Source of the DNA: Quadrisphaera setariae
GTDB taxonomy: Bacteria > Actinomycetota > Actinomycetes > Actinomycetales > Quadrisphaeraceae
Direction: 5' to 3'
NCBI RefSeq assembly: GCF_008041935.1
Contig: NZ_VKAC01000016.1
Span: 1-64,000, forward strand
DNA: 64,000 bases
Position 1 is the stretch's first letter; the number at the start of each line of letters is the position of its first letter. Both the position numbers and the translations under genes were made by a program. Shown one piece after another: positions 46,329-61,832 of the stretch. The notes beneath the pieces are model-generated. The model was given only the letters and a program-made list of their open reading frames with translations. It searched no databases and had not been told where the DNA came from.

Positions 46329-47956
46329 CGGTCGCTCCAGCGCAGCCAGGCGAGGTAGTTCGTGTAGCGCTGGTGGGCGTGCTTGAGGGCGAGGGCGTCG
46401 TCGTAGAGGTGCCCGTGGAGCTTGCGGCCGTCCTGCCAGGCGGCCAGCAGCTGCTCGATGCGGGCCTGCCGCGTGAGCACCTCCGCCTCGGTGACGCCGT
46501 CGAGCCCGGCCTCGAGCTCGGCGAGGACGTCGCCGACCGGGTCGTCGTCGTCCAGCCCCGCCGCCTCGTACTGGGCGCACGCGGTGTCGAAGAGGTCCCG
46601 CAGCCACGACGTCCGGTCGGTCCGCAGCTCCTCGCGGCCGCCCTCGAAGGCGGGCGAGGACAGGTCGGGCGCCACCTTGTCGTGCAGCACGAACGGAAGC
46701 ACGGCGCGCAGGTCGTCCACGCCCACCTGGTCGCGGCCCCGGAACAGCGCCATCGCCTTGGCGTAGAGCACGAGCGCCTGCAGGGAGCGCACCGACAGGC
46801 CGTTGAGGGTCTGCGCGCCGACGTCGCCGAGGCGGTCGCGGCCGGTGTCGGCCGCCGCCAGCAGGTGCGGGTCCACCCCGGCCAGGCGGGCGGTGTCCTT
46901 GGTGCGGTACTCGAACTGCCGGCCCGCCCGCTCCAGCAGCTCCAGCTGGCCGGCGAAGTGCTCCAGCCGCCGGCGCACGGGCTGCGGCAGCGGCACCGCG
47001 CGCACGGCGGCGGCCAGCGCGGCGTGCTCGGCCTCGTCGAAGACGATCGAGGGCGGCACCGCCTCCTCGGGACGGATCCGCCGCTCTCCGCGCTCCACCA
47101 GCGCCCCGAGGAACCGGTGGTTGAACGGCAGCGCCGCCACCACCACGTCGATCCTGTCGCGCAGCGCCTCCACCACCTCGTAGGTGCCGCCGCCGAGGTC
47201 GTCGTTGGCGGTGAGGTACCAGGCGGCGTCACCGGTCTCGAAGACCTGGTCGTAGACCTCGACGTAGCCGTCGGCCAGCACCGTGAGCAGCGCGGACTGG
47301 GTGCGCGTGGGGATGCGGTTGTACTCGTCGACCACCTTGACGCGCATGCCGAGCCAGGAGCGCCAGGCCACCTCGACGTCGGCGAGGCGCTCGGCCTCCA
47401 CCAGACCCCGCGGCAGCGGCGTGCCGAACAGGTCCGCCACGGACACCTGGGGGTGCCCGTGCTGGACCGCCCGGCGCACCTGCGCCGGGGTGTACCCGGC
47501 GATGACGCCCATGAGCAGCGCGCTCGCCGTCTTGCCGCGGCCCGGGCCGCCCACCAGCAGGCAGCGCCCCCGCACCGCGAACGTCAGCAGCGGCAGCAGC
47601 ACGAAGGAGCTGTACGACTGGTCGGTCGGCAGCACCAGCTCCGCGCGCGAGTCGCCGAGGCGGAACGTCGGGGGGCGGACCGCGTCGTCGGCGAGCAGCT
47701 CCACGTCGCAGTGGGGGCTGATGATCGCGTGGTTGACCATCCAGAAGTACGCCTGCCGCAGCTTCTCGGCCAGCTGCGCGGGGGAGGGGGCTCCACCGCC
47801 GTCGACCCCCGGGAGCGCGCCCTCGGGGGCGTAGAGGTCGGCGACGTCGAGCGCGCCGTCGTCCCGCTCCGTGCGCGCCGGCGCCGGCGGGCGGGTCGGC
47901 GCGCTGGAGACGCGGCCCAGCTCGAGGTGGTGCGGAGGCGGCGGGCTGCTGCTCAC
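46325..47956 (-). CDS. MoxR-type AAA+ ATPase
   Basis: A 543-residue AAA+ ATPase. A disordered Pro-rich head (1-60) precedes the ATPase core: Walker A GGPGRGKT (136-143), Walker B VKVVDE (206-211) and sensor 1 YLTAND (about 247-252). The insert and the segment ADGYVEVYDQVFE are MoxR-like. A long C-terminal helical region (about 390-543) ends in WLRWSDR. MoxR proteins act as chaperone-like motors for VWA partners. GTG overlaps the nadR stop (GTGA). Confidence 0.92.
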   Translation of the reverse strand: MSSSPPPPHHLELGRVSSAPTRPPAPARTERDDGALDVADLYAPEGALPGVDGGGAPSPAQLAEKLRQAYFWMVNHAIISPHCDVELLADDAVRPPTFRLGDSRAELVLPTDQSYSSFVLLPLLTFAVRGRCLLVGGPGRGKTASALLMGVIAGYTPAQVRRAVQHGHPQVSVADLFGTPLPRGLVEAERLADVEVAWRSWLGMRVKVVDEYNRIPTRTQSALLTVLADGYVEVYDQVFETGDAAWYLTANDDLGGGTYEVVEALRDRIDVVVAALPFNHRFLGALVERGERRIRPEEAVPPSIVFDEAEHAALAAAVRAVPLPQPVRRRLEHFAGQLELLERAGRQFEYRTKDTARLAGVDPHLLAAADTGRDRLGDVGAQTLNGLSVRSLQALVLYAKAMALFRGRDQVGVDDLRAVLPFVLHDKVAPDLSSPAFEGGREELRTDRTSWLRDLFDTACAQYEAAGLDDDDPVGDVLAELEAGLDGVTEAEVLTRQARIEQLLAAWQDGRKLHGHLYDDALALKHAHQRYTNYLAWLRWSDR

Positions 47957-49038
47957 GGCGCCAGCATGCTCCCCGTCACTCCAGCACCGGCCTCGACACC
48001 GGCCTCGGGCAGCGGGTCGCTCATCGGCCGGCCCCGCAGCGGCAGCCGCTCGACGGCCTCGACGGCCGCGGCCAGGCGCTGCTCCGGGGTGCCGGAGACC
48101 TCCAGCCACGGCGCCGGCTGCGCCGCGAGCACCTCGCGGAACCTCTCGTGCATCGCCAGGCGCACGTGCTCGCCGTCGCGCCAGCCGTCCTGCACGAAGG
48201 GGATCTCCGCACCGGTGAGCAGGTACAGGTCCGGCACCCGGGAGGCCGCCAGCGCCTCGACGGTGGGGGAGCGGTGGCCGACGTAGCGCTCGTGCCAGAC
48301 CGCCGTGGCCAGCGCGTCGGTGTCGCAGACCACGAGCGGCCGCCGGGCGGTGCGGGCGGCGTCGTCCTCGAGGCGGCTCTGCTCGCGGGCGATGAGGTCG
48401 AACTCGGCCGTGTGCCAGGGGGCCTCCAGCCCGCCCGGGCGCACCTCGCACCACTCCCGGCCGTGCTCGGGCACCCACGGGGCGCCGAAGTGCTCGGCCA
48501 GGTCTCGCGACAGCGTGGTCGTCCCGGTCGACTCGGCCCCCACGACGACGACGCGCAGCGCGTGCCAGGCCCGCACCGCCGCCGGGAGCGCCCACCAGTG
48601 CCCCGCCGGGTCCGCGCGCACGGCGCGGCCCGACACCGGCACGGCCGTGCGGCCGGGGTCGACCTGCACCCACTGCGCCCCGAGCCGCTGGGCCAGCTCG
48701 GCGCCGTACGCGTCGGAGGTGAGCACCGCGTCGACGCCGTCCACCCCGCGGGCGTCCAGCAGCGACCGCATGACGCCGACGTGCGCCTCCCACGCGGCGG
48801 GGTCGGCGTAGTCGACCCGGTGGTCGTCCAGGGCCGTGACGACGTCGGCGCCGGGCAGCTCCTCGCGCAGCCACGCCGCGCGCAGCTCGCCGGGCACCGA
48901 CTCCGCGCTGGAGGCGAGCACCTGCACCTGCACCCGCTCGCAGCGGCGCAGCGCGGTGGCCACGAGGTGCAGGTGGCCGGCGTGCGGAGGGTAGAACTTG
49001 CCCACCACCAGGCCCTGGGCGAAGCGCTGCTCGCTCAC
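47953..49038 (-). CDS. nadR: NadR-type NMN adenylyltransferase / nicotinamide riboside kinase
   Basis: A 361-residue two-domain enzyme. The N-terminal nucleotidyltransferase has GKFYPPHAGHLHLV; the C-terminal kinase has the P-loop VVVGAESTGTTTLSRDLA and a lid region around EHGREWCEV. It would phosphorylate nicotinamide riboside and adenylate NMN to NAD+. No DNA-binding domain is present. It overlaps pnuC (GTGA), the usual partner, and MoxR, which is unusual. Confidence 0.93.
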   Translation of the reverse strand: MSEQRFAQGLVVGKFYPPHAGHLHLVATALRRCERVQVQVLASSAESVPGELRAAWLREELPGADVVTALDDHRVDYADPAAWEAHVGVMRSLLDARGVDGVDAVLTSDAYGAELAQRLGAQWVQVDPGRTAVPVSGRAVRADPAGHWWALPAAVRAWHALRVVVVGAESTGTTTLSRDLAEHFGAPWVPEHGREWCEVRPGGLEAPWHTAEFDLIAREQSRLEDDAARTARRPLVVCDTDALATAVWHERYVGHRSPTVEALAASRVPDLYLLTGAEIPFVQDGWRDGEHVRLAMHERFREVLAAQPAPWLEVSGTPEQRLAAAVEAVERLPLRGRPMSDPLPEAGVEAGAGVTGSMLAP

Positions 49039-49598
49039 CGGGCGGCCGCCGGGAGCTCCCGGCGCCAGGAGCGCCACCCGAACGCGCAGAGCATCACGAA
49101 GCCGGCGTAGAGCAGTGCCGTGGCGTGCAGGCCCTGCGAGGCGTACAGGCCCACGAGCCACACGTCGGTGACGATCCACACCAGCCACGTGCCGAGCAGC
49201 TTCCGGTCGAGCATGAGCTGGGCCACCAGGCTGAGGGCCGTGGTGCCGGCGTCGGCGACCGGGGCGGGGTCGTCGCTGCGCACGAGCACCGCCCACAGCA
49301 GGGCGCCGAGGACGACGGCGGACGCGACCGCCACCGGCCACGCCCAGGGCGGGGTGGCGCGCACCCGCAGGCGGGTGCGCCCCGGCCCGCCGCGCACCCA
49401 CCAGAACCACCCGAGCGCGCTGAGGGCCACGTAGACCACCTGCAGCCCCGCCTGCGCGTACAGGCCGCCGGTGGTGAAGAGCCACCCGAAGGCCAGGCAC
49501 CCGAGGATGCCCACCGGGTAGGTCGAGGGTCGCTGGAGGACCGCCAGGAGCACGCTGGCCGCGCTCGCGACCACGCCGACGCCTTCGAGCCACCCCAC
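49035..49598 (-). CDS. pnuC: PnuC nicotinamide riboside transporter
   Basis: A 187-residue membrane protein with about seven hydrophobic segments. PnuC marks are YPVGILGCLAFGWLF, QVVYVALSALGWFWWVRGG and the C-terminal TWLVWIVTDVWLVGLYASQGL. It imports nicotinamide riboside by facilitated diffusion, trapped by the kinase encoded next. The GTG at 49598 starts eight bases after a TACGGT -10 box, so the seven-gene operon probably begins with a leaderless message. Confidence 0.93.
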   Translation of the reverse strand: MGWLEGVGVVASAASVLLAVLQRPSTYPVGILGCLAFGWLFTTGGLYAQAGLQVVYVALSALGWFWWVRGGPGRTRLRVRATPPWAWPVAVASAVVLGALLWAVLVRSDDPAPVADAGTTALSLVAQLMLDRKLLGTWLVWIVTDVWLVGLYASQGLHATALLYAGFVMLCAFGWRSWRRELPAAAR

Positions 49599-49606
49599 GA
49601 CCGGCG

Positions 49607-49612
49607 ACCGTA
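49607..49612 (-). promoter_or_regulatory. -10 box of the pnuC-nadR-MoxR operon
   Basis: TACGGT on the minus strand ends eight bases before the pnuC GTG. No -35 element was clear. This is the only promoter candidate seen for the whole seven-gene unit. Confidence 0.5.
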
Positions 49613-49658
49613 GCCGCTGCCCGTGACGCCGTCGGCGGGGACTGGCAGGCTCGGGTCC

Positions 49659-50555
49659 GTGCCCAGCAGCGCCGCTCAGCAGCAGCCGTCGTCGTCCGCC
49701 CCGTCGTCGCCGGCGGTGGGGGTGGTCGTCCGCCCGCAGCAGCCGCCGGAGGCGCTGCGGGAGCACGCCACCACCGCCGAGCAGGCCGGCGCCCACGAGC
49801 TGTGGCTCTGGGAGGACTGCTTCTGGGCGGGGGGCCTGACCTCCTCGGCGCTGGCGCTGGCGTGGACCTCCTCGATCCGCGTCGGCCTGGGGCTCATGCC
49901 CGTGCCGCTGCGCAACCCGGCGCTGACGTCCATGGAGGTCGCGGCGCTGGCGCGGGCGTTCCCGGGGCGCTTCCTGCCGGGCGTGGGTCACGGGGTGCTC
50001 GACTGGATGGGGCAGGTCGGTGCGCGCGAGGCGTCACCGATGACGCTGCTGCGCGAGCACCTCGACGTGCTCGCACCCCTGCTGCGGGGGGAGCGGGTCA
50101 GCGCCGACGGCCGCTACGTCCACCTCGACGGCGTGCAGCTCGACCACCCGCCGCAGGTGGTGCCGCCGCTGCTCGTGGGCGCGCGCGGCCCGAAGACGCT
50201 GGCGCTGGCGGGGGAGCGCTCCGACGGCGTCATCCTCGACGCCGGTCCGTCCCCGGAGGAGGTGGCCGCCTCCGTCGGGCACACCGGCCGGGCCGGTGAC
50301 GACGCCTTCCACGTGGTGGTGTTCGTGCCGTCCGCGGTGGGGGACGGCGCGCGCGAGCGCATCGACGCCGAGGCCGACGGGTGGGGCAACCACCGCCCGG
50401 CCGCGCCGCTGGTGGGGTCCGCCGACGAGGTGGCCGCGCTCGTGCGGGCCTACGGCGAGGCCGGCGCGACGTCCGTGGTGCTGCAGCCCGTGGGGGACGG
50501 GACGGACGCGCTCGACGTCGTGCGCCTCGCGGGGGCGGCCGCAGCGCTCGTCTGA
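49659..50555 (+). CDS. LLM class F420-dependent oxidoreductase
   Basis: A 298-residue luciferase-like protein of the F420-dependent type: AGAHELWLWEDCFWAGGL, IRVGLGLMPVPLRNPALTSMEVA, RFLPGVGHGVLDWMGQVG and PPLLVGARGPKTLALAGERSDGV. The substrate is unknown. GTG at 49659 is chosen as the first start near the conserved region; GTG at 49623 is possible. It is divergent from the pnuC operon, 60 bases away. Confidence 0.88.
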   Translation: MPSSAAQQQPSSSAPSSPAVGVVVRPQQPPEALREHATTAEQAGAHELWLWEDCFWAGGLTSSALALAWTSSIRVGLGLMPVPLRNPALTSMEVAALARAFPGRFLPGVGHGVLDWMGQVGAREASPMTLLREHLDVLAPLLRGERVSADGRYVHLDGVQLDHPPQVVPPLLVGARGPKTLALAGERSDGVILDAGPSPEEVAASVGHTGRAGDDAFHVVVFVPSAVGDGARERIDAEADGWGNHRPAAPLVGSADEVAALVRAYGEAGATSVVLQPVGDGTDALDVVRLAGAAAALV

Positions 50556-50598
50556 CGTCTGAGGTGTGGACCGCGCGCGACGGGGTACTGCACCCACC

Positions 50599-51468
50599 GT
50601 GAGTGACACGACGCAGAAGACCGGAGCCGTCCCGACGATCACGCTCAACGACGGCCGCACCATCCCGCAGCTGGGCTTCGGGGTGTTCCAGGTGCCCCCG
50701 GAGGACACCGCCGAGGTGACCGGGCGGGCGATCGAGATCGGCTACCGCCACATCGACACCGCTGAGATGTACGGGAACGAGAAGGGCGTCGGCGAGGCCG
50801 TGCGCGCCTCCGGACTCGACCGCGACGAGTTCTTCATCACCAGCAAGCTCAACAACGGCTTCCACCGACCCGACGACGCGCGGGCCGCGTTCTCGACGAC
50901 GCTGTCCGAGCTGGGGGTGGAGCAGGTCGACCTGTTCCTCATCCACTGGCCGCTGCCCACGCTGTACGACGGCGACTTCCCCGCCACCTGGCGGGTCCTG
51001 GAGGAGTTCTACCGCGACGGCCGCGCCCGCTCGATCGGCGTCTCCAACTTCACGCCCCACCAGCTCCGCCGCCTGGCCCGCGAGACGGAGATCACCCCGG
51101 CGGTGAACCAGATCGAGGTCCACCCCTACTTCACCAACGACGAGACCCGGGCCTACGGCGTCGACCACCAGATCGCCACCGAGGCCTGGTCGCCCATCGC
51201 CCAGGGCCGCGTCCTCGACGACCCCACCATCTCGGAGATCGCCGAGCGCGTCGGGAAGTCGACGGCGCAGGTGACGCTGCGCTGGCACGTCGAGCGCGGC
51301 GACATCGTCTTCCCCAAGTCGGTGACCACCGAGCGCATGCAGGCCAACTTCGAGATCTTCGACTTCGAGCTGGCCGACTCCGACGTCGCCGCCATCAGCG
51401 CCCTCGACAAGGGCGAGGCCGGCCGCACCGGCCCGAACCCCGAGACGTTCGACTACGTCCCCAGCTGA
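50599..51468 (+). CDS. Aldo/keto reductase (2,5-diketo-D-gluconate reductase-like)
   Basis: A 289-residue AKR. It has the fold's markers: LGFGVFQVPPEDT, GYRHIDTAEMYGNEKGVGEA with catalytic Asp and Tyr, ITSKLNNG with the Lys, IHWPLP with the His, SIGVSNFTPHQL and the NADPH region FPKSVTTERMQANF. It reduces aldehydes or ketones with NADPH. GTG at 50599 without a clear ribosome binding site; probably leaderless. Confidence 0.94.
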   Translation: MSDTTQKTGAVPTITLNDGRTIPQLGFGVFQVPPEDTAEVTGRAIEIGYRHIDTAEMYGNEKGVGEAVRASGLDRDEFFITSKLNNGFHRPDDARAAFSTTLSELGVEQVDLFLIHWPLPTLYDGDFPATWRVLEEFYRDGRARSIGVSNFTPHQLRRLARETEITPAVNQIEVHPYFTNDETRAYGVDHQIATEAWSPIAQGRVLDDPTISEIAERVGKSTAQVTLRWHVERGDIVFPKSVTTERMQANFEIFDFELADSDVAAISALDKGEAGRTGPNPETFDYVPS

Positions 51469-51499
51469 CGCGGCCGACGCGGGTCCGACACCGTGCAGC

Positions 51500-52459
51500 T
51501 CACGAGGTCGGGCCCGCGTCCAGCAGCTCCCAGGTGCGGGCGTGCTGCGCCACCGCGGCGCCGCACGTGAGGCGCTGAGGGCTCTCCACGTGGCGCTGGC
51601 GCACCCGCACCGCCAGGGGTGAGCCGTCCGCGAGGTCGAAGACCACCCGCCACGGCGCGTCGGCGTCCGCACCCTCGCGCGTCGCGGAGACCGGCACAAG
51701 GTCGCGCACCTCGGCGCGGCCCAGCGCCTGGCGCGCCAGCACGTCGGCGGCCTGCACCACCATCGCGTCGCAGCAGCGTCCGCGCAGCAGCGCCGGCACC
51801 ACACGACCCACCGCCGTCGCCTCCACCACCGCGGCAGCGTCCGCGGTGTCCACGCGCCCGTAGGTCCAGCCGGTCGGCAGGGACAGCAGGTTGGCGGCGA
51901 ACCTGTCCCCGCCCAGGTGGGAGCACTCCCACACCCGCGACGGCGCCAGCTCGGCCAGCGCCGCGGCCAGCGGGCGGCCCCGCCGCGCGCAGCACCAGTC
52001 CTTGCGCCCGTGCGTGCACACGAGCAGCGGCCCGCCGTCGGAGGTGTCGAGGTCCGTCCAGCCCTCCGGCGAGCGCGCCGCCTGGACGACCTCGGCCACC
52101 GAGCACGACCGGGTGATGACGCGCTCGCGGTCTCGGCGCACCGAGACCCGCATGAGCACGCGCTCGCCGTCGTCACCGGCAGCGGCGCGCAGGACGCTCG
52201 CGCCGGGCCGGCGCACCAGCAGCAGCTTGGCGCCGATCGAGGCGGCCACCTCCTTGAGCGCCGCGGTGGCCGCGTCGCCCAGCCGGGAGGACGGCACACC
52301 CCCAGGCCCCCACGGGCCGGGCTCCTCCACCAGCAGGAAGCCGCGCGTGGTGCTCGCCGAGCCCAGCACGGGCTCGCCGCGCTGCTGCGACTCGGCGGCG
52401 CAGGAGTAGCGCCGGTCGGCCGGGGTGAGGCCCTCGGGGGCTGAGGACGCGGTGAGCAC
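51500..52459 (-). CDS. Sucrase/ferredoxin-like (thioredoxin-fold Fe-S) protein
   Basis: A 319-residue protein of the sucrase/ferredoxin-like family. The cluster-type motif VCTHGRKDWCCARRGRPLA, the WECSHLGGDRFAANLL segment and cysteine pair GRCCDAMV are characteristic. An early RRYSCAAES motif supplies another Cys. Members have a thioredoxin-like fold and probably bind a [2Fe-2S] cluster. It lies 20 bases after the JmjC gene (or overlaps it if a CTG at 52483 is the start), so it may feed electrons to that oxygenase; this is inference. Confidence 0.87.
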   Translation of the reverse strand: MLTASSAPEGLTPADRRYSCAAESQQRGEPVLGSASTTRGFLLVEEPGPWGPGGVPSSRLGDAATAALKEVAASIGAKLLLVRRPGASVLRAAAGDDGERVLMRVSVRRDRERVITRSCSVAEVVQAARSPEGWTDLDTSDGGPLLVCTHGRKDWCCARRGRPLAAALAELAPSRVWECSHLGGDRFAANLLSLPTGWTYGRVDTADAAAVVEATAVGRVVPALLRGRCCDAMVVQAADVLARQALGRAEVRDLVPVSATREGADADAPWRVVFDLADGSPLAVRVRQRHVESPQRLTCGAAVAQHARTWELLDAGPTS

Positions 52460-52479
52460 CCCGACCGGCTGGTCGGACG

Positions 52480-53799
52480 TCAGCTCGTGCCCTCCGGCAC
52501 CTGCCCGGCGGGCACGAGGACCCGCTCGCGCAGCAGCCGCCGCAGGAGCACCTGCGCGTCGTCGGCGTCGATCGCCACCCCGGAGCCGGCCAGGGACGAC
52601 GGCGACGACGGCCCCGCCAGCGCCGCGCGCAGCGCCGGCTCGACCCACCCGGGGAAGCTGACCGTGCGCTGGTCGACGCGCAGCTCCACGCGGTCGCCGG
52701 CCACCTCGACCCGCGCGTGCAGCCCGATCCGCGGACGCACCGCGCCGTCGGCGCCGAGCGTGCGGGCCGCGCGGTCCTGGGACAGCGGGCCCACGGGCTC
52801 CAGGGGCACCGCCTGGCGGCGCCGGGCTGCCACGACGCGCTCGACGGCGTCGTCGTCGAGCTGCTCCAGCCACGCCAGGGCGGCGCGGCGGAACACGGCG
52901 ACGTCGCTCTCGAGGCCGGTGGGCCCCTCGGCCTCCACCGGCAGCGGCAGGGCCCGGCGCAGGGCGAGGGAGTCCTCGCCACCCCCCTTCCCTGCCGACG
53001 CGAGGAGGTCGGTGAGCACGTCCTGCCAGGTGGTGGCCAGCAGGCCCACCGTGAGGTGGATGGAGCGGTCGTCCGTCGTCTGCGCCGAGTGCAGGTAGCC
53101 GCGGGGCAGGTACAGCGCGTCGCCGGGCTCCAGCACGGTGTCGACGAGGGGCTCCCGGCCGCCCACGGGGTCGGGCCCGAGGTCCTTGCTCGGCTGCGTG
53201 CGCAGCGGCAGCTCCACCGCCGGCGGGTGGATCGTCCAGTGCTTGCGCCCGTCGACCTGCAGCACGAGCACGTCGTGGGTGTCGTGGTGGGGCTTGAAGC
53301 CCTGCGCGCCGGGCGGGGTCACGTAGACGTTCGTCTGGGTCTGGCAGCCGAGCTCGGCGGCGAGGTCGCGGCAGAACACCCCGAGCGCCGGCCACACGCG
53401 GTGCAGCGCGTTGAGCACGATGGTGGCGCCCTCGGCGTGGTTCCTCGCGATGCCGTCCGGGTCGGGCAGGTCGCCCAGGCGCTGGTTGCCGGCGTTCGCG
53501 GCGCGCGTGTAGCTGGACCGCGGCAGGGTCACGCCGTCCCTGACCATGGCGAAGAACGGCGTGCGCAGGCCGCGCGGGCCCAGCAGCGCGTCGACGTCGG
53601 CGGGGGAGAGCAGGTCGTCGAAGCCGCGCGCCAGGGCGTGCCCGCGGTCGGCGGCGCGCACCAGCAGCGGAGCGCGGTTCCAGTGCTCGGCCGCGAAGCG
53701 CTCGGGCGTGGTGCCGAAGCAGCGGGCCAGCGGAGACGGACCGGCCCCGGTCCCCGCGGGGACCGGGGCCGCCAGCTCGCGCTCGAGCTCAGCCGTCAC
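52480..53799 (-). CDS. JmjC/cupin_4 Fe(II)- and 2-oxoglutarate-dependent oxygenase
   Basis: A 439-residue JmjC hydroxylase of the ROX/YcfD-MINA53 class. Iron ligands are His171 and Asp173 in FKPHHDTHDVLVLQ and His237 in ALYLPRGYLHSAQ. A winged-helix-like C-terminal region follows (about 270-439). Known relatives hydroxylate Arg or His in ribosomal proteins. Here the gene starts one base after the stop of an Asp-rich repeat peptide, which makes that peptide the obvious candidate substrate. The GTG at 53799 is fixed by that junction and by the N-terminal fold. Confidence 0.9.
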   Translation of the reverse strand: MTAELERELAAPVPAGTGAGPSPLARCFGTTPERFAAEHWNRAPLLVRAADRGHALARGFDDLLSPADVDALLGPRGLRTPFFAMVRDGVTLPRSSYTRAANAGNQRLGDLPDPDGIARNHAEGATIVLNALHRVWPALGVFCRDLAAELGCQTQTNVYVTPPGAQGFKPHHDTHDVLVLQVDGRKHWTIHPPAVELPLRTQPSKDLGPDPVGGREPLVDTVLEPGDALYLPRGYLHSAQTTDDRSIHLTVGLLATTWQDVLTDLLASAGKGGGEDSLALRRALPLPVEAEGPTGLESDVAVFRRAALAWLEQLDDDAVERVVAARRRQAVPLEPVGPLSQDRAARTLGADGAVRPRIGLHARVEVAGDRVELRVDQRTVSFPGWVEPALRAALAGPSSPSSLAGSGVAIDADDAQVLLRRLLRERVLVPAGQVPEGTS

Positions 53800-53800
53800 G

Positions 53801-54031
53801 TCAGCTGTTCGCAGGGTCGACGCCCGCGGGGTCGGAGCCGGCCGGGTCGACCTGGGTGCTGTCGGAGTCGCCGGAGTCGGCGTCGCCACCGGAGCCGCCG
53901 GCGGGGTCCACGCCGGCCGGGTCGGAGCCGGCCGGGTCGACCTGGGTGGCGTCGGAGTCGCCGGAGTCGGCGTCTCCGCCCGCCCCGCCCGCTCCGGTGG
54001 TCGTGGTGATGTCGTCGTCGTTGAGGGACAT
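53801..54031 (-). CDS. Asp-rich two-repeat peptide (candidate precursor or oxygenase substrate)
   Basis: A 76-residue peptide with 17 Asp and no Lys, Arg, Cys, His or aromatic residues. After a short N-terminus (MSLNDDDITTTTG) come two near-identical 26-residue repeats at 19-44 and 49-74, differing only at Ala28/Ser58. Each holds DADSGDSD, then three DPA units spaced five residues apart. ATG at 54031 has a perfect AGGAGG six bases upstream, so the gene is meant to be translated well. It is followed after one base by the JmjC gene. No known family was recognised. It could be a RiPP-like precursor, a hydroxylation substrate or a Ca2+-binding repeat peptide. Confidence 0.8.
   Translation of the reverse strand: MSLNDDDITTTTGAGGAGGDADSGDSDATQVDPAGSDPAGVDPAGGSGGDADSGDSDSTQVDPAGSDPAGVDPANS
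53810..53977. repeat. Two ~78-bp direct repeats at a 90-bp period
   Basis: The two DNA copies (53810-53887 and 53900-53977) encode the peptide repeats and are almost identical even at wobble positions, which indicates recent duplication or gene conversion. Confidence 0.88.
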
Positions 54032-54109
54032 GCGGCCTCCTGCTCGTGCACCGACCCGGTCGGGCGGTGCTCGACCATCGTGCCCGCCGGGGTCCGGACC
54101 CGCACCCGC

Positions 54110-55729
54110 TCAGGGGGTGCGCACGGCCATGACGACGACGTCGTCGGCGGGGCGCCCCGGCAGCGCCGCGGCGAGCAGCGCGTCCAGCAGCTCCTCCAGC
54201 GAGGCGCCGGCGTGCTCGGCCACGAGCGGCCCCAGCAGCGCCGCGAGCTCGGCGGTGCCCTCGTCGAGGTCGCGGTCGCGCCGCTCCACCAGCCCGTCGC
54301 TGTGCAGGAGCAGCACCGAGCCCGACGGCACCGTCACCACGTGGTCGGTGCGGTGGGTGCTCGGGTCGACGCCGAGCAGCAGCTCCGGGGGGCGCGAGAG
54401 CACCCGCGTGCGCCCGTCCGGCGGCACCAGCAGCGGGGGCGGGTGCCCGGCGTTGGCCCACCGCCAGCTCCGCGCGCCCGCGCGGCCCGGCGGGGTGAGC
54501 ACCCCGGCCACCACGGTGGCCGGCGCGGGCACGTCCAGGCGCCAGAACGCGTCGTCAGCGGCCGTCAGCGCCCGCGACGGGAGCCCGTCGACGGCCAGCA
54601 GGAAGGAGCGCAGGGCCCCGCTGGCGCGCCCCATCACCGCCGCGGCCTCGACGTCGTGGCCGGCCACGTCGCCCACCACGAGGGCCAGCCGGCCGCCGTC
54701 GAGGGGGACGGCGTCGTGCCAGTCGCCCCCCACGTGGTCGCGGCGCCCCGCCGGCAGGTAGCGCGCCGCCAGCTCCACGTCCAGCCCGCGGGGCAGCGGC
54801 GCCAGCAGCGCGCGCTGCAGCACCTCGGCGGCGCTGGCGCGGTCGGCCAGCAGCAGCGCGCGCCGCACCGCCTGCCCGGTGGCGCCGGCGGAGGCGCGCA
54901 CCACGTCGAGCACGCCGCCGCTGACGCGCCCGTCCTCGCGCCAGCCCACGGTCAGGGCCCCGACCACGGAGTCCTCCGCGACCAGCGGCACCACAAGCCC
55001 CGAGCGCAGGCCGGAGCGCCGGACGCGGTCGGCGACCTCGGGGAAGAGCGCCCCGACGTCCTCGAGGCGCTCGAAGACCAGCTCCTCACCGGTGCGGCAC
55101 ACGTGGGGGGCCGGCCCGGCGTGCTCCAGCGGCAGGTCGGCCCAGGCCTCCTCGACCGCGGGGTCGATCTGCGCGCGGGACGCGGTGCGCACGCGCCGGG
55201 TGGACCAGTCCACCACCGACAGCCCGCCGTAGTCCGCTCCGAGCTTCTCCGTGGCCACGGTCACGACGGCCGAGGCGACCTCGTCGAGCGTGCGGGCCGC
55301 GCCCAGCGCCGTGGACACCTCCAGCACCAGGCGGGTGCGCTCCAGGGAGTCCGCCAGCTGCTCGGCCGCCCGCCGCCGCTCGTCGGCGCTGCGGGCCACC
55401 ACCAGCAGCAGCCCGTCGAGCGGGACCGCCTGCAGCTCGTACCAGCGCGGCCCGCCGATCCGCGCCTCCCACGTGGTGGTGGCGCCGGTGCGCGCCGCGC
55501 GGCGCAGCGGCTCCTCGCTCGTGGAGGTGCCGGGCACCGCGTCCCACAGCACCCGGCCCACCACGGCGGCGGGGTCGAGCCCGCTGGCCGAGGCGGCCGC
55601 GGGGCTCACCCACAGCACCTCCCAGCCCGGTCCGAGGACGGCGACGGGGTCGGGGATGCTGGCCAGCGCCCGCAGCCACCAGCCCGCGGGCACGGTGGCG
55701 GTGGTCCCGCCGTCGTCGCCCAGGTGCAC
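54110..55729 (-). CDS. PAS-GAF PP2C (SpoIIE-type) phosphatase
   Basis: The 539-residue protein has a PAS domain (about 15-125), a GAF domain (about 135-285) and a SpoIIE/PP2C phosphatase domain (about 305-539). Phosphatase metal motifs are VGGDWHDAVPL, LVVGDVAGHDVEAAAVM, LLHSDGLVERRD and PADDVVVMAV. It would dephosphorylate an anti-anti-sigma factor in a partner-switching pathway; the RsbW-like protein at 20.4 kb is a possible partner, though distant. GTG start at 55729. Confidence 0.92.
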   Translation of the reverse strand: MHLGDDGGTTATVPAGWWLRALASIPDPVAVLGPGWEVLWVSPAAASASGLDPAAVVGRVLWDAVPGTSTSEEPLRRAARTGATTTWEARIGGPRWYELQAVPLDGLLLVVARSADERRRAAEQLADSLERTRLVLEVSTALGAARTLDEVASAVVTVATEKLGADYGGLSVVDWSTRRVRTASRAQIDPAVEEAWADLPLEHAGPAPHVCRTGEELVFERLEDVGALFPEVADRVRRSGLRSGLVVPLVAEDSVVGALTVGWREDGRVSGGVLDVVRASAGATGQAVRRALLLADRASAAEVLQRALLAPLPRGLDVELAARYLPAGRRDHVGGDWHDAVPLDGGRLALVVGDVAGHDVEAAAVMGRASGALRSFLLAVDGLPSRALTAADDAFWRLDVPAPATVVAGVLTPPGRAGARSWRWANAGHPPPLLVPPDGRTRVLSRPPELLLGVDPSTHRTDHVVTVPSGSVLLLHSDGLVERRDRDLDEGTAELAALLGPLVAEHAGASLEELLDALLAAALPGRPADDVVVMAVRTP

Positions 55730-55786
55730 CGCCAGATCGAACCACGCCCCGCCGACGGCCGGGAGGCCCCTGGGCGTCCGCTGTGC

Positions 55787-56803
55787 TCACAGGCCGAGCA
55801 GGCGCACCCCCGCGTAGGCCACGCCGGCCACGAGGACCCACGACACGATGCCGAGGACCAGCGAGCGCCCGCCGGTGCGCACGAGCACGCGCAGCCGGAT
55901 CCCCGTGCCGAGGGCGTACAGGGCCGCCACGAGCAGCACCGTCTGCACCAGCTGGGCCGCGTCGAGCAGCCCGGTGGGCAGCAGCCTCGTGCTCCGGACC
56001 GCCACGGCGAGCAGGAAGCCCACGACGAACAGCGGCAGCAGCGGCACCCGGGCGCGCGAGGTGCCGTCGTCGTCGGCGGCGGCCCGGGAGCGAGCGGCGC
56101 GCCGCGCCGCCAGCCCGACCCCCGCCACCAGCGGCGCCAGCAGCGCCACCCGCGCGAGCTTGACGACGACGGCGGTCTGCAGGGCCCCGTCCACGCGGCT
56201 CGCGGTGGCCACGACCTGCCCGACGTCGTGGACGCTCGCCCCCACCCACGCCCCGAAGGCCACCGGGTCGAGCCCCAGCGGCCCCGCCAGCGGCGGCAGC
56301 ACGAGGATCGCGAGCGAGCCGCAGAGGGTCACGAGCGCCACGGCGGTGGTGACGTCGTCCTTGCGGGCCTTCGCCAGCGGCTCCACCGCGGCGATGGCGG
56401 AGGCCCCGCAGATGGAGAAGCCGGTGGACACGAGCAGGCTCCGGCCCGGCGGCAGGCCGAGGGCGCGCCCCAGGAGCAGCGTGCCGGCGAACGTCACCGC
56501 CACGGTGACGACGACGACGACCAGGCCCTGCCAGCCCAGCGCGAGCACGGCGCCGAGCGGCAGCTGCAGGCCCAGGAGCACCACCGCGGTGCGCAGCAGC
56601 CTGCGGCTGGCGAAGGCGGTGCCGGGGGCCAGGGCGGCGCGCTGCAGGCCGGTGTTGGCCACCAGCAGGCCGAGCACGACGGCCACCGTGGTCGGCCCGA
56701 GGCCCGGCACCAGGGAGGACACCCCGAACGCGAGCGCCGCGGCCGCCGCCGCGGCGAGCAGGCCGGGCAGGAGCGGGCGCACCGACGCCTCAGGGGCGCG
56801 CAC
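55787..56803 (-). CDS. YeiH-type putative sulfate exporter
   Basis: A 338-residue membrane protein with about ten helices, of the YeiH/UPF0324 family: VLGLLVANTGL, RTAVVLLGLQLPLG, LLVSTGFSICGASAIAAVEPL, FGAWVGASVHDVGQVVATAS and ALYALGTGIRLRVL. Family members are annotated as sulfate exporters, with weak evidence. It overlaps a small membrane gene by 14 bases and sits beside a SAM riboswitch gene, which fits sulfur traffic. Confidence 0.88.
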   Translation of the reverse strand: MRAPEASVRPLLPGLLAAAAAAALAFGVSSLVPGLGPTTVAVVLGLLVANTGLQRAALAPGTAFASRRLLRTAVVLLGLQLPLGAVLALGWQGLVVVVVTVAVTFAGTLLLGRALGLPPGRSLLVSTGFSICGASAIAAVEPLAKARKDDVTTAVALVTLCGSLAILVLPPLAGPLGLDPVAFGAWVGASVHDVGQVVATASRVDGALQTAVVVKLARVALLAPLVAGVGLAARRAARSRAAADDDGTSRARVPLLPLFVVGFLLAVAVRSTRLLPTGLLDAAQLVQTVLLVAALYALGTGIRLRVLVRTGGRSLVLGIVSWVLVAGVAYAGVRLLGL

Positions 56804-58812: not shown

Positions 58813-60927
58813 CTACCGTGGCAGGGACGCCCAGGAGCTGCTCGTCGGCGTGGCCTCGGGCGCTCCGGCGCGGGCCGGGGCGCCGCTGCGGCCTCGCGCG
58901 GCGAGCACCTCGATGATGCCCGACAGCTGGCCGAGCTCCGCAGCCGCGGACTCGCGCAGACGGGTGAGCTCCGCCACCTCAGCGGTCAGCCGGTCACGCT
59001 GGGCGACGGCGTCGACGCGCTCCCTGTCGGCCTCGGCGCGGGCCTCCACCACCAGGCGGACGGCCTCGGCGCGGGCCTCGCGGCGCGCGTCCTGGGACTC
59101 GCGCTGTGCACGGGCGACCTCCTCGGCCACCCGGGCCCGCAGCGAGCGGGCGCCGTGCTCGGCCTCCTCGGCGCGCCGCGCGGAGCGCTCGCGCGCCGTC
59201 GCCTCCGCGGCGCCCGCGGCCGCCAGCACGCGGTCGGCGTCCTGGCGGGCGGCGCGCACGAGGCGCACCGCCTCGGCGCGCGCGGACTCCAGCTCGTCCA
59301 CGGCGGTGCGCCGCAGCTGCTCGGCCTCGGCCTCCAGCCCGCCCAGGCGGGTGCGCACGCGCTGGCTGGCGGTGCCCATCACGGCCTGCAGGCGCACCCG
59401 GGCGCGGCGCACGGCGGCAGCGGCCTCGGCGTGACCGCGGTGGCGGACGGTGCGGGCCTCCTCCTCGGCGGCGGTCAGCAGCGCCTGCACCGTGCCCGTG
59501 GTCCACGCGGTCTGCTCAGCGGCGGCCGCGAGCTCCTTCTCCGCCTGCGCGCGCGCCTCGGCGCGCACCCGGCGGCCCTCCTCGACGGCCTGCTCGCGAG
59601 CGGCGGAGGCCTCCTGGCGCGCCTGGACGAGCTCGGTCTCCGCGGTGCGCCGCACCGCGGAGGCGTCGGTGGTGGCCGCGGCGAGCACGCGCTCGGCCTG
59701 GGAGTACGCCTCGGCGGTGGCGCGCTGCGCCTCGATGTGACCGGTCTCGCGGATGGTGTCGGCCTCGGCCATCGCCTCGGCGCGCTCCTGCGCGGCGGCC
59801 TCGCGGGCGGCGGCGAGCAGCTGGTCGGCCTCGGCGCGCGCACCGGCCAGCAGGCGGTCGCCCTCCTCGGCCGCCCGGTGGTGCGCGGTGCGGGCGAGCT
59901 CCTCGGCGGCGGCGCTGTCCGCCATCGCCTGGGTGAGCATCGCGTCGGCGGTGCTGGAGGCCGCCTCGACCACCATGGCCGCCTGCTCGGCGGCGTCCTC
60001 CACCAGCTGCTGGGCCTCAGCGCGCGCCTCGGTCATCGCAGCCGTCGACCGCTCGCGCAGCGAGGCCACCTCGGCGGCGGCCTCCTGGTGCTGCGAGCGC
60101 AGGGCCGTGATCGCCGCGGACAGGTCGGAGGCCTCGCGGCGCAGGTGCGCCGACTCCTCGCGCAGCTCCACGGCGCGGCGCTCGGCCTCCTCGACGGTGA
60201 GGCGCGACTCGGCGGCCGCGTCGCGGCGCACCCGCGCGGCGTGGGCCTCGGCGGCGGCGCGCACCGCCTCGGCGTCGCGCCGGGCGGCGCCGGTGAGCTC
60301 CTCGGCCTCGGAGCGGGCGCGCGCCGCCTCGGCGGCGGTGGCCCGCTGCAGGGCGGCGGCGTCGGCCTCAGCGGCGGCGCGCACGCGCTCGGCGTGGTCC
60401 TGGGCCAGGCCGAGCAGGTGGATGGCGCGCTCGGGAGCCTCCGGCCGCGGCGCCGGGCGGTGCGGCGGCACGGGGGCCGCGGCCTCGGTGGCCAGGGCCT
60501 GCGACGGCGCCGACGGGGCTGCCACCGGCGGGCGCACCTGTCGGTGCTGCGCCGACGGCGCCGACGGCGCAGCGGCGGGTCCCGACGGCGGCAGCACGAC
60601 CGGCGAGGGCAGCGAGCGACCGCCGGAGCGCGCGCGCACCGGGAGGTCGTCCAGGTCGGGCACCGGGGCGCGCCGGCTGACCATCTGGGGCTGCGGCGCC
60701 TCCGAGGCGACCGCCTCCTCGGGGGAGCGTCCCCAGCGGCGCCGCTCGGAGCGGGGCCGCTGCGGAGCGTCGGGCAGCCCCGAGGTGTCGACGGGCCCGC
60801 TCAGGGCGGCGTGCGGGATGCCCGCGGGGGAGGTGGAGCTCAGGAGGCTGCCCTCGGGGACCTCGGGCACCACGGCCGTCGCACCCCCGGCAGCACCGGT
60901 GGTCCGCTGCGGCCGGTCCGTCCTCAT
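58813..60927 (-). CDS. Giant coiled-coil protein (Scy/FilP-like)
   Basis: A 704-residue protein. Residues 1-165 are disordered and Pro/Ala/Ser-rich; about 165-660 form one nearly unbroken coiled coil with Ala, Glu and Arg at regular spacing (e.g. HAERVRAAAEADAAALQRA), like the Scy-type scaffolds that work with DivIVA in Streptomyces. The segment EVARAQRESQDARREARAEA continues the heptads. The gene precedes the DivIVA gene on the same strand, supporting a shared role in cell-shape or polarity. Orthology to Scy is not proven, since composition alone can mislead. Confidence 0.82.
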   Translation of the reverse strand: MRTDRPQRTTGAAGGATAVVPEVPEGSLLSSTSPAGIPHAALSGPVDTSGLPDAPQRPRSERRRWGRSPEEAVASEAPQPQMVSRRAPVPDLDDLPVRARSGGRSLPSPVVLPPSGPAAAPSAPSAQHRQVRPPVAAPSAPSQALATEAAAPVPPHRPAPRPEAPERAIHLLGLAQDHAERVRAAAEADAAALQRATAAEAARARSEAEELTGAARRDAEAVRAAAEAHAARVRRDAAAESRLTVEEAERRAVELREESAHLRREASDLSAAITALRSQHQEAAAEVASLRERSTAAMTEARAEAQQLVEDAAEQAAMVVEAASSTADAMLTQAMADSAAAEELARTAHHRAAEEGDRLLAGARAEADQLLAAAREAAAQERAEAMAEADTIRETGHIEAQRATAEAYSQAERVLAAATTDASAVRRTAETELVQARQEASAAREQAVEEGRRVRAEARAQAEKELAAAAEQTAWTTGTVQALLTAAEEEARTVRHRGHAEAAAAVRRARVRLQAVMGTASQRVRTRLGGLEAEAEQLRRTAVDELESARAEAVRLVRAARQDADRVLAAAGAAEATARERSARRAEEAEHGARSLRARVAEEVARAQRESQDARREARAEAVRLVVEARAEADRERVDAVAQRDRLTAEVAELTRLRESAAAELGQLSGIIEVLAARGRSGAPARAGAPEATPTSSSWASLPR

Positions 60928-61001
60928 GCAGCCGATGGTGGCACGCAGCCGCCGTCCGGGACGGGCTTTCGCGCTTCGTCGGAGCGTCGTGTCGCGGCCG
61001 G

Positions 61002-61832
61002 TCAGCGCGCCAGGGGCAGGGGCTCGGGCCGCTTCGGGGCCACGCCGTCGCCGCTCGAGCGCCCCTCGAGGCGCCGCCGCACCCACGGGGCCAGGTGGGC
61101 GCGCGCCCAGGCGGCGTCCTGGCCGGCGCGCGCCAGGCGTCCGGGGGAGGGCTGCGGCGGCAGCGGTGAGGCCCACTCCTGCTCGGCCGCCCCCAGATCG
61201 CCGCCGTGCAGCCCCCGCACGGTGGCGGCGGCCAGCAGGGCCACCCGCTCGTGGCCCTCCGGCGCCAGGTGGATCCGGTCCGGGGCCCACATCCGCAGGT
61301 CGTAGAGGGCGCGCATCGACCACAGGTCCATGACCAGCGCGTCCCAGCGCTGGGCGATGCGCCACAGGTGGAGGTTGAAGGTGGCCACGCGGCCGCGGGT
61401 CATGCGCACCACCGGAAGCCCGGCGGGGTCGAAGCCGGCCGCCAGCAGCACCTGGGCTCCGGCGGAGCGGGCGGCGCCCACCGCCTCGTCCAGCGCGGCG
61501 GCCAGGGCGTCGACGTCGACGCTGGGTCGCAGGATGTCGTTGCCGCCCGCGCTGATGCTGAGCAGGTCAGGGCCGAGCTCGAGGGCGCGGGGCAGCTGCT
61601 CGTCCAGGACCTCCCGCATCCGCTTGCCGCGGACGGCGAGGTTGGCGTACTCCAGGCGCGAGCCCGCGCCGCGCGCGTCGTCGTCGAGCAGCTCGGCGAG
61701 CCGGTCGGCCCAGCCGCGGTGGCGTCCGGGGGAGGCCGGGTCGGGGTCGTCGATGCCCTCGGTGAAGGAGTCCCCGACGGCGACGTACCGCCGGTACGTC
61801 GGCGCGGGTCCGCGCGCGGGGTCAGCAGCCAC
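61002..61832 (-). CDS. SGNH/GDSL hydrolase
   Basis: A 276-residue esterase-type protein. Block I is VAVGDSFTEGID with the catalytic Ser, the Gly block is ANLAVRGKRM, the Asn block is SAGGNDIL, and block V DRIHLAPEGHERVA contains the Asp-His pair. No signal peptide, so it acts inside the cell. The substrate is unknown. GTG at 61832 follows a TAGCGT -10 box by six bases (leaderless). Confidence 0.93.
   Translation of the reverse strand: MAADPARGPAPTYRRYVAVGDSFTEGIDDPDPASPGRHRGWADRLAELLDDDARGAGSRLEYANLAVRGKRMREVLDEQLPRALELGPDLLSISAGGNDILRPSVDVDALAAALDEAVGAARSAGAQVLLAAGFDPAGLPVVRMTRGRVATFNLHLWRIAQRWDALVMDLWSMRALYDLRMWAPDRIHLAPEGHERVALLAAATVRGLHGGDLGAAEQEWASPLPPQPSPGRLARAGQDAAWARAHLAPWVRRRLEGRSSGDGVAPKRPEPLPLAR

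Follow-up and report, generated by a model that had tools for sequence, protein, structure and literature searches.

What does a short, strongly acidic repeat peptide do when its gene stands directly before that of a JmjC oxygenase? The question was raised by a 64,000-nucleotide stretch of the Quadrisphaera setariae genome (contig NZ_VKAC01000016.1, positions 1 to 64,000; hereafter the window), where a tightly packed cassette of three minus-strand genes encodes an Asp-rich peptide, a JmjC oxygenase of NO66-like type and a Suc_Fer-like protein. We consider it probable that the cassette resembles the systems of ribosomally synthesized and post-translationally modified peptides (RiPPs), with the JmjC enzyme hydroxylating aspartates in the peptide repeats and the Suc_Fer-like protein serving as redox partner. 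The following features were located:

54036..54041, minus strand: Shine-Dalgarno sequence AGGAGG, read from the sequence, four bases before the peptide ATG
53801..54031, minus strand: gene of the Asp-rich repeat peptide, the proposed substrate or precursor; ATG start, 76 aa; orthologues under purifying selection
53996..54028, minus strand: leader-like segment SLNDDDITTTT, residues 2-12 of the peptide, a motif common to several repeat types
53900..53977, minus strand: peptide repeat unit 1, residues 19-44, GDADSGDSDATQVDPAGSDPAGVDPA
53810..53887, minus strand: peptide repeat unit 2, residues 49-74, GDADSGDSDSTQVDPAGSDPAGVDPA
52480..53799, minus strand: JmjC (PF08007) Fe(II)/2-oxoglutarate oxygenase, 439 aa, NO66-like architecture, GTG start
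53281..53289, minus strand: HxD iron-binding motif of the JmjC protein (H171, D173), invariant in 164/164
53089..53091, minus strand: distal iron ligand H237 of the JmjC protein, invariant in 162/162
52510..52740, minus strand: C-terminal domain of the JmjC protein, residues 354-430, strands followed by three helices in the AlphaFold2 model
51500..52483, minus strand: gene of the Suc_Fer-like protein (PF06999), probably a [2Fe-2S] redox protein; the start is likely the CTG at 52483, failing that the GTG at 52459

The initial annotation, made from the letters of the DNA, had described a 76-residue peptide with near-identical repeats, no basic residues and a good ribosome binding site, a JmjC gene one base further on with an intact H-D-H site, and a sucrase/ferredoxin-like third gene. 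This description held throughout. The peptide, MSLNDDDITTTTGAGGAGGDADSGDSDATQVDPAGSDPAGVDPAGGSGGDADSGDSDSTQVDPAGSDPAGVDPANS, contains 17 Asp and no Lys, Arg or His, and its two 26-aa units differ in one residue and eight nucleotides, six of these at third codon positions; Pfam and NCBIfam gave no match to it. A single base separates its stop codon from the GTG start of the JmjC gene, whose product matched PF08007 (JmjC_2) with 101.7 bits against a cut-off of 22. The third product matched PF06999 with 70 bits (cut-off 34.9), and its start was refined to a probable CTG at 52483, which would overlap the JmjC stop codon as CTGA (52480-52483). The CTGA overlap recurs in Quadrisphaera and Kineococcus relatives and reads GTGA in L006, L008 and L015; among six close loci (window, L009, L010, L011, L013, L014), four lack an ATG, GTG or TTG near the Suc_Fer start.

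Conserved adjacency of the peptide and JmjC genes

Profile searches of sampled genomes located the JmjC gene in 62/396 genomes of the order (E <= 1e-40), 113/394 of the class (E <= 1e-40), 58/396 of the phylum (E <= 1e-30) and 79/149 of one family (E <= 1e-20); these samples overlap in part, and the class and phylum counts take in weaker JmjC groups. The 208 loci selected for inspection (L009-L216, the window's own included) comprised all 64 places of the order search, 90 of the class search (30 automatic, 60 chosen, mostly higher-scoring) and 50 of the phylum search (30 automatic, 20 chosen), and none from the one-family searches. They represent 184 distinct loci, five of them without upstream DNA, leaving 179. 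A strict criterion was applied: an open reading frame (ORF) of 30-260 aa with at least 14% Asp, at most 6% Lys plus Arg and at most 4% Trp, Phe, Tyr plus Cys, whose end falls from -150 to +90 relative to the JmjC start. Such an ORF stood directly upstream of the JmjC gene in 143/159 loci scoring at least 230 bits. Two profiles supplied the bit scores (A1 those of L009-L082, A3 those of later loci), the splits at 230 and 490 bits were chosen after the data had been seen, and the loci are related by descent, so that the counts are of non-independent events. At random positions of the same DNA the criterion was satisfied 3 times in 3,580 on the same strand and 8 times in 3,580 on the opposite strand; the count was 0/915 where other ORFs (200 aa or longer) start, and 0/175 at the position just past the JmjC stop. 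The random-position and other-ORF controls thus exclude chance as the source of the pattern. A relaxed rule or inspection raised the count to 155/159, the controls having been run under the strict rule: 11 of the 16 strict-rule misses had the same kind of peptide by the relaxed rule, and L134 an Asp-rich peptide containing Lys or Arg. Short Asp-rich repeat ORFs directly upstream of JmjC genes, for which the initial annotation had proposed a neighbourhood search, were thus found across the phylum.

Presence of the two genes was also correlated. In one family (149 genomes), a JmjC match above 490 bits and a peptide match at E <= 1.8e-17 occurred in exactly the same 20 genomes, each time with the two genes side by side. 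Three weak peptide matches (E 9.1e-7 to 7.5e-5) occurred elsewhere, one being a second match within one of the 20 genomes; 59 further genomes with a lower-scoring JmjC were left out of this comparison. A peptide gene missing from close relatives that keep the JmjC gene had been named as the observation that would speak against a dedicated pair. The pair passed this genomic test: seven genomes of the window's family have a JmjC match, and a repeat peptide adjoins it in every one. Of the six genomes without a JmjC match, five had no strong peptide match; in the sixth (G012) the peptide gene stands at the edge of a contig, and the JmjC gene would lie beyond it. The peptide P0001 (E <= 1e-7) matched 5/13 genomes of the family, four with JmjC plus G012. 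G008 and G010, of the same genus as P0001-positive genomes, have neither peptide nor JmjC, and G004, G006 and G007 have the JmjC gene with a diverged repeat peptide. The 'modified-peptide system' proposed in the initial annotation can, as far as sequence data go, be called a well supported hypothesis.

In reference genomes, ten JmjC relatives were found, in two Quadrisphaera, three Kineococcus, two Phycicoccus, a Mycobacterium metagenome-assembled genome (MAG), an Egibacteraceae MAG and a record titled Streptomyces sp. NP160, which is 92% identical; an acidic repeat ORF lies directly upstream in nine, and the tenth (L011) starts inside the gene. Altogether the cassette occurs in at least 38 GTDB-coded families of Actinomycetota. 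A viral origin was rejected, as no relative was found among viral contigs with profile A3, and so was mobility, the 30 plasmid records all being below 60% identity (20 listed at 30-36%). The JmjC protein matches four PHROG families of unknown function, with a best E of 1.1e-22.

Peptides, oxygenase and redox protein

The 143 peptides have a median length of 85 aa (33-213) and a median net charge of -19. They consist of 27% Gly, 20% Asp and 16.5% Ala, the Asp content being partly set by the selection criterion, with Trp, Phe, Tyr and Cys at about 0.1% each under a criterion ceiling of 4%. Past residue 15, in the core, Asp and Gly are present in 143/143 peptides, Ala in 142 and Ser in 134, while His occurs in 87 cores, Asn in 60, Arg in 57 and Lys in 17. 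Three main repeat types were distinguished: DGGAD, DxxD and TQVDPAGSDPAG. Over the 142 tips of a JmjC tree (FastTree), DGGA repeats account for 88, DxxD repeats (e.g., DGDATDTTDGD) for 39, the TQxDP type of the window for 11 and other types for 4; the repeat type tracks the tree with at least seven changes among the four types, a figure without a shuffled-label control. Repeats are maintained over the 38 families. Among 36 non-overlapping orthologue pairs, 308, 261 and 970 differences fell on codon positions 1, 2 and 3 and pN/pS was 0.27; a 50% identity filter removed none of the pairs. The peptides are therefore coding and constrained, and a frame artefact of GC-rich repeats is ruled out by the codon-position bias. 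The exception is the pair L069/L070, of the non-repeat 'other' type, with a pN/pS of 0.93. These two loci and L067 (the three with GTDB codes f17, g28) carry acidic non-repeat peptides ending in GPT[IV]EPGA before the JmjC gene; no Suc_Fer gene was found at the three.

A front motif, [DEN][DES][DE][IM]x[TS] (e.g., DDDIxT), occurs in 76/143 peptides, against 0.65 expected by shuffling: in 11/11 of the TQxDP, 30/39 of the DxxD, 35/89 of the DGGA and 0/4 of the other peptides. A common front end followed by diverging repeats has, in sequence terms, a leader-and-core look. The peptide of L016/L120 (Egibacteraceae MAG) is unlike the other types: it has roughly six GTYGPRDASSADGTDQGV-like units, in which Tyr and Arg occur; the front motif is present in it as DDDISSS. 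Six peptides, the window's and five others, had no match when scanned against NCBIfam. A ribosome binding site was scored in 107/143 loci, a rough count since the scoring took the longest start. In 60/143 loci the distance from the peptide stop to the nearest ATG or GTG in frame with JmjC is -4, -1, 0, 1, 2 or 3.

The iron site of the oxygenase is intact: among aligned homologues H171 and D173 are invariant in 164/164 and H237 in 162/162, and with the PF08007 match this HxD...H site places the protein in the JmjC superfamily. K186 is invariant as well. Four residues are specific to the family, R79 (162/164), R134 (161/164), H175 (163/164) and D176 (164/164); they do not occur in aligned NO66 and may be candidate Asp-binding residues. 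The AlphaFold2 model has a mean pLDDT of 91.9, and the best PDB matches by sequence and fold were NO66, MINA53, YcfD and YxbC. In the model the C-terminal domain resembles a winged helix or a RiPP recognition element (RRE) and could bind the leader. The winged helices of ribosomal oxygenases are similar, so this reading is suggestive only.

The Suc_Fer gene follows the JmjC gene on the same strand in 119 of the 141 peptide loci whose DNA reaches far enough; another two are too short to judge. Its presence on the 142-tip tree needs at least 13 changes (without a shuffled control). In 130 aligned domains C28, C156, C164, C165, H189 and C307 are invariant. The motif reads CX8C...HXGGD, with both Cys and the His in 130/130, the two Gly in 129-130 and the last position Asp in 126 and Cys in 4. 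The best PDB sequence matches were [2Fe-2S] ferredoxin entries, weak at E 0.016; the protein likely holds a [2Fe-2S] cluster.

Within flanks of about 1.5-5 kb, JmjC and Suc_Fer were the only widely recurrent neighbours. All other clusters comprised at most eight loci, apart from a 158-locus minus-strand cluster that was taken as shadow frames of the cassette genes. A larger biosynthetic cluster was rejected on this result, and so was a graspetide, as an ATP-grasp ligase is lacking when no third neighbour family recurs widely. A defence system was rejected for want of a PADLOC match; neither NCBIfam nor PADLOC has a specific model naming the cassette.

Proposed chemistry and its alternatives

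In the mechanism that we propose, the peptide would be the dedicated substrate of the adjoining Fe(II)/2-oxoglutarate oxygenase. The leader-like N-terminal segment (DDDIxTT) may be held by the enzyme, plausibly via the C-terminal winged-helix domain, while Asp residues spaced along the low-complexity repeats would pass the active site and be oxidised, most likely at C-beta, giving beta-hydroxyaspartate at several sites. The Suc_Fer-like protein would probably either keep the JmjC iron as Fe(II) or carry out a further redox reaction. The outcome would be a poly-hydroxylated peptide of strongly anionic character that might bind metals. Asp is proposed as the oxidised residue because of the peptide composition, the enzyme class and the RiPP precedents. 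JmjC enzymes are also able to hydroxylate His, Asn, Arg and Lys, and the lack of these in many peptides provides the argument from composition. Beta-hydroxyaspartate is chelating, hence the guess of a metal-binding role. A bolder version, in which the regularly spaced Asp of (DGGAD)n-type peptides become poly-hydroxyaspartate and the peptide, neither exported nor freed of its leader, serves whole to buffer or store a metal (Fe, Ca or Mn), would make these peptides a widespread class of modified, intrinsically disordered polyanions; we offer it tentatively, as a possible but doubtful extension.

Several observations weigh against aspartate hydroxylation in a RiPP-like cassette. Modification of the peptide is so far a prediction from sequence. 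Ribosomal oxygenases, whose targets are His or Arg residues in ribosomal proteins, are the closest solved relatives of the enzyme. The front motif as written is absent from 67/143 peptides, and 21/143 loci have no ATG or GTG in the JmjC frame near the peptide stop. Of the weaker JmjC loci (below 230 bits) 6/20 satisfied the strict criterion; above 230 bits no such peptide was found in L073, L170 and L204, and L171 has a different one. The Suc_Fer gene is missing from 22/141 loci and is thus not essential everywhere, and a PDB structure search with its model (pLDDT 79.6) gave no match at E <= 0.001. In the flanks inspected no protease, exporter or regulator recurred near the cassette in more than eight loci, which leaves maturation and export unexplained. 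A short encoded precursor adjoining its presumed modifying enzyme is a feature of RiPP systems that is present here; genes for leader removal or export were not found in these flanks, and we therefore call the system RiPP-like only.

The peptide may also be the JmjC substrate for another chemistry, namely an oxidative cross-link or macrocycle, oxidation of the backbone at Gly, or oxidative cleavage. Gly is as universal in the cores as Asp, and electrons for a second step could come from the Suc_Fer-like protein. The residues usually cross-linked are scarce, however, within the limit set by the criterion, and both the canonical HxD...H site and the NO66-like fold speak for hydroxylation, so that we regard such a chemistry as unlikely. 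Still less probable is a JmjC enzyme that oxidises ribosomal or other proteins, the acidic peptide being a partner, not a substrate, with a regulating or stabilising role or in competition with a basic substrate. Fold and domain order do match NO66, MINA53 and YcfD over nearly the full length, and a polyanion could act as a nucleic-acid mimic or cover a basic groove. A core ribosome modifier would, however, hardly show the patchy presence seen in the order, class and phylum samples; the repeat type changes along the enzyme tree, and H175, D176 and R134 are absent from NO66. That the ORF is a regulatory upstream ORF of little sequence importance, driving JmjC translation by coupling as the tight spacing at 60 loci might suggest, is very improbable given the strong amino-acid constraint, the lengths of 33-213 aa with repeats retained in 38 families, and the lack of Rfam elements at gathering thresholds across positions 50500-55800.

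Neighbouring genes, related loci and known systems

Immediately upstream of the cassette, a PAS-GAF-SpoIIE phosphatase (Pfam) is encoded at 54110-55729 (minus strand); a similar ORF occurs at L009 and L010 and stands outside the widely recurrent neighbours. Further away on the minus strand are the gene of a DivIVA-like protein (PF05103, 57754-58779) and, after it, a very long ORF (58813-61365) of charged, coiled-coil-like appearance without a Pfam match at E 1e-5. At 47953-49991, also on the minus strand, an NMN transporter (PF04973) adjoins an AAA_28 protein, a pair that we take to be PnuC-NadR.

Other JmjC genes have small peptides beside them as well. A second JmjC group (below 230 bits) comprises eight loci (L182, L185, L187-L189, L191-L193) with peptides of about 35-38 aa, e.g., MDPIEVEVEDLAEVTSRDITAGGDSDGTDSSSDFI; a homologous ORF lies upstream of the peptide, in L189, the one tested, a Peptidase_S9 (121 bits), and no Suc_Fer gene was found at the eight loci. 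This group is another candidate JmjC peptide family, with a protease. On a Streptomyces clavuligerus plasmid (L217, 2266-3661) a gene annotated as cupin (JmjC) is preceded by one for a 48-aa peptide rich in DNDPSDP/DPDPFDP, and an S9 family peptidase is encoded downstream on the opposite strand; on a Dolichospermum plasmid (L218, 1646-4131) a distant JmjC/cupin gene is accompanied by a small peptide with a double-glycine-like leader and an NRSSAQL repeat.

If the proposed reading is true, the cassette is a minimal oxygenase-peptide system spread over these families of Actinomycetota, a large branch of the bacterial JmjC enzymes gains natural substrates, and the cassette gives a genetic handle on Suc_Fer-like proteins. 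With two or three genes and a small, highly polar peptide, the chemistry should be directly testable. Among the open-access papers listed, a range with subscription papers mostly outside it, none was found to describe Asp/Gly/Ala repeat substrates or the pairing of JmjC with Suc_Fer.

Tailoring of RiPPs by JmjC enzymes is already known, as are RRE-like JmjC proteins in RiPP-like contexts. BipG/BpmG are JmjC enzymes that hydroxylate a RiPP precursor; like the cassette, the biphenomycin systems (BipG/BpmG, PbsQ) combine a JmjC/cupin-type enzyme with a ribosomal precursor encoded nearby (PMC12707348, PMC12257519). These clusters differ in that a single Orn made by arginase is hydroxylated and a MNIO, a B12-dependent radical SAM enzyme and a protease are present, whereas the window cassette has no Arg or Lys in its peptide, a repetitive Asp core, and JmjC and Suc_Fer as its only proteins beside it. 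One paper (PMC12710340) notes RRE-like domains in JmjC (PF08007) proteins and reports bacterial homologues whose neighbourhoods are RiPP-like; the passage concerned names neither an Asp-repeat precursor nor a Suc_Fer partner. NO66, MINA53 and YcfD (PF08007), the closest solved structures, share the HxD...H site, but they act on ribosomal His or Arg, while the cassette family has H175-D176, R79, R134 and the linkage to a peptide gene. The Suc_Fer-like protein shares CX8C...HXGG with the thioredoxin-like ferredoxins Apd1/Aim32, whose motif is given as CX8C...HXGGH (PMC11138216); that full motif is not found in the cassette proteins, where the fourth ligand is Asp (126/130) or Cys (4/130) instead of His and C28, C164 and C307 are extra invariant cysteines. 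Beta-hydroxylation of Asp in a precursor peptide is ascribed to PesHI, a MNIO, and PflD (PMC13060819), which belong to an unrelated enzyme family, PesHI targeting one Asp and not repeats. Set beside these systems, the cassette looks like an undescribed modified-peptide family.

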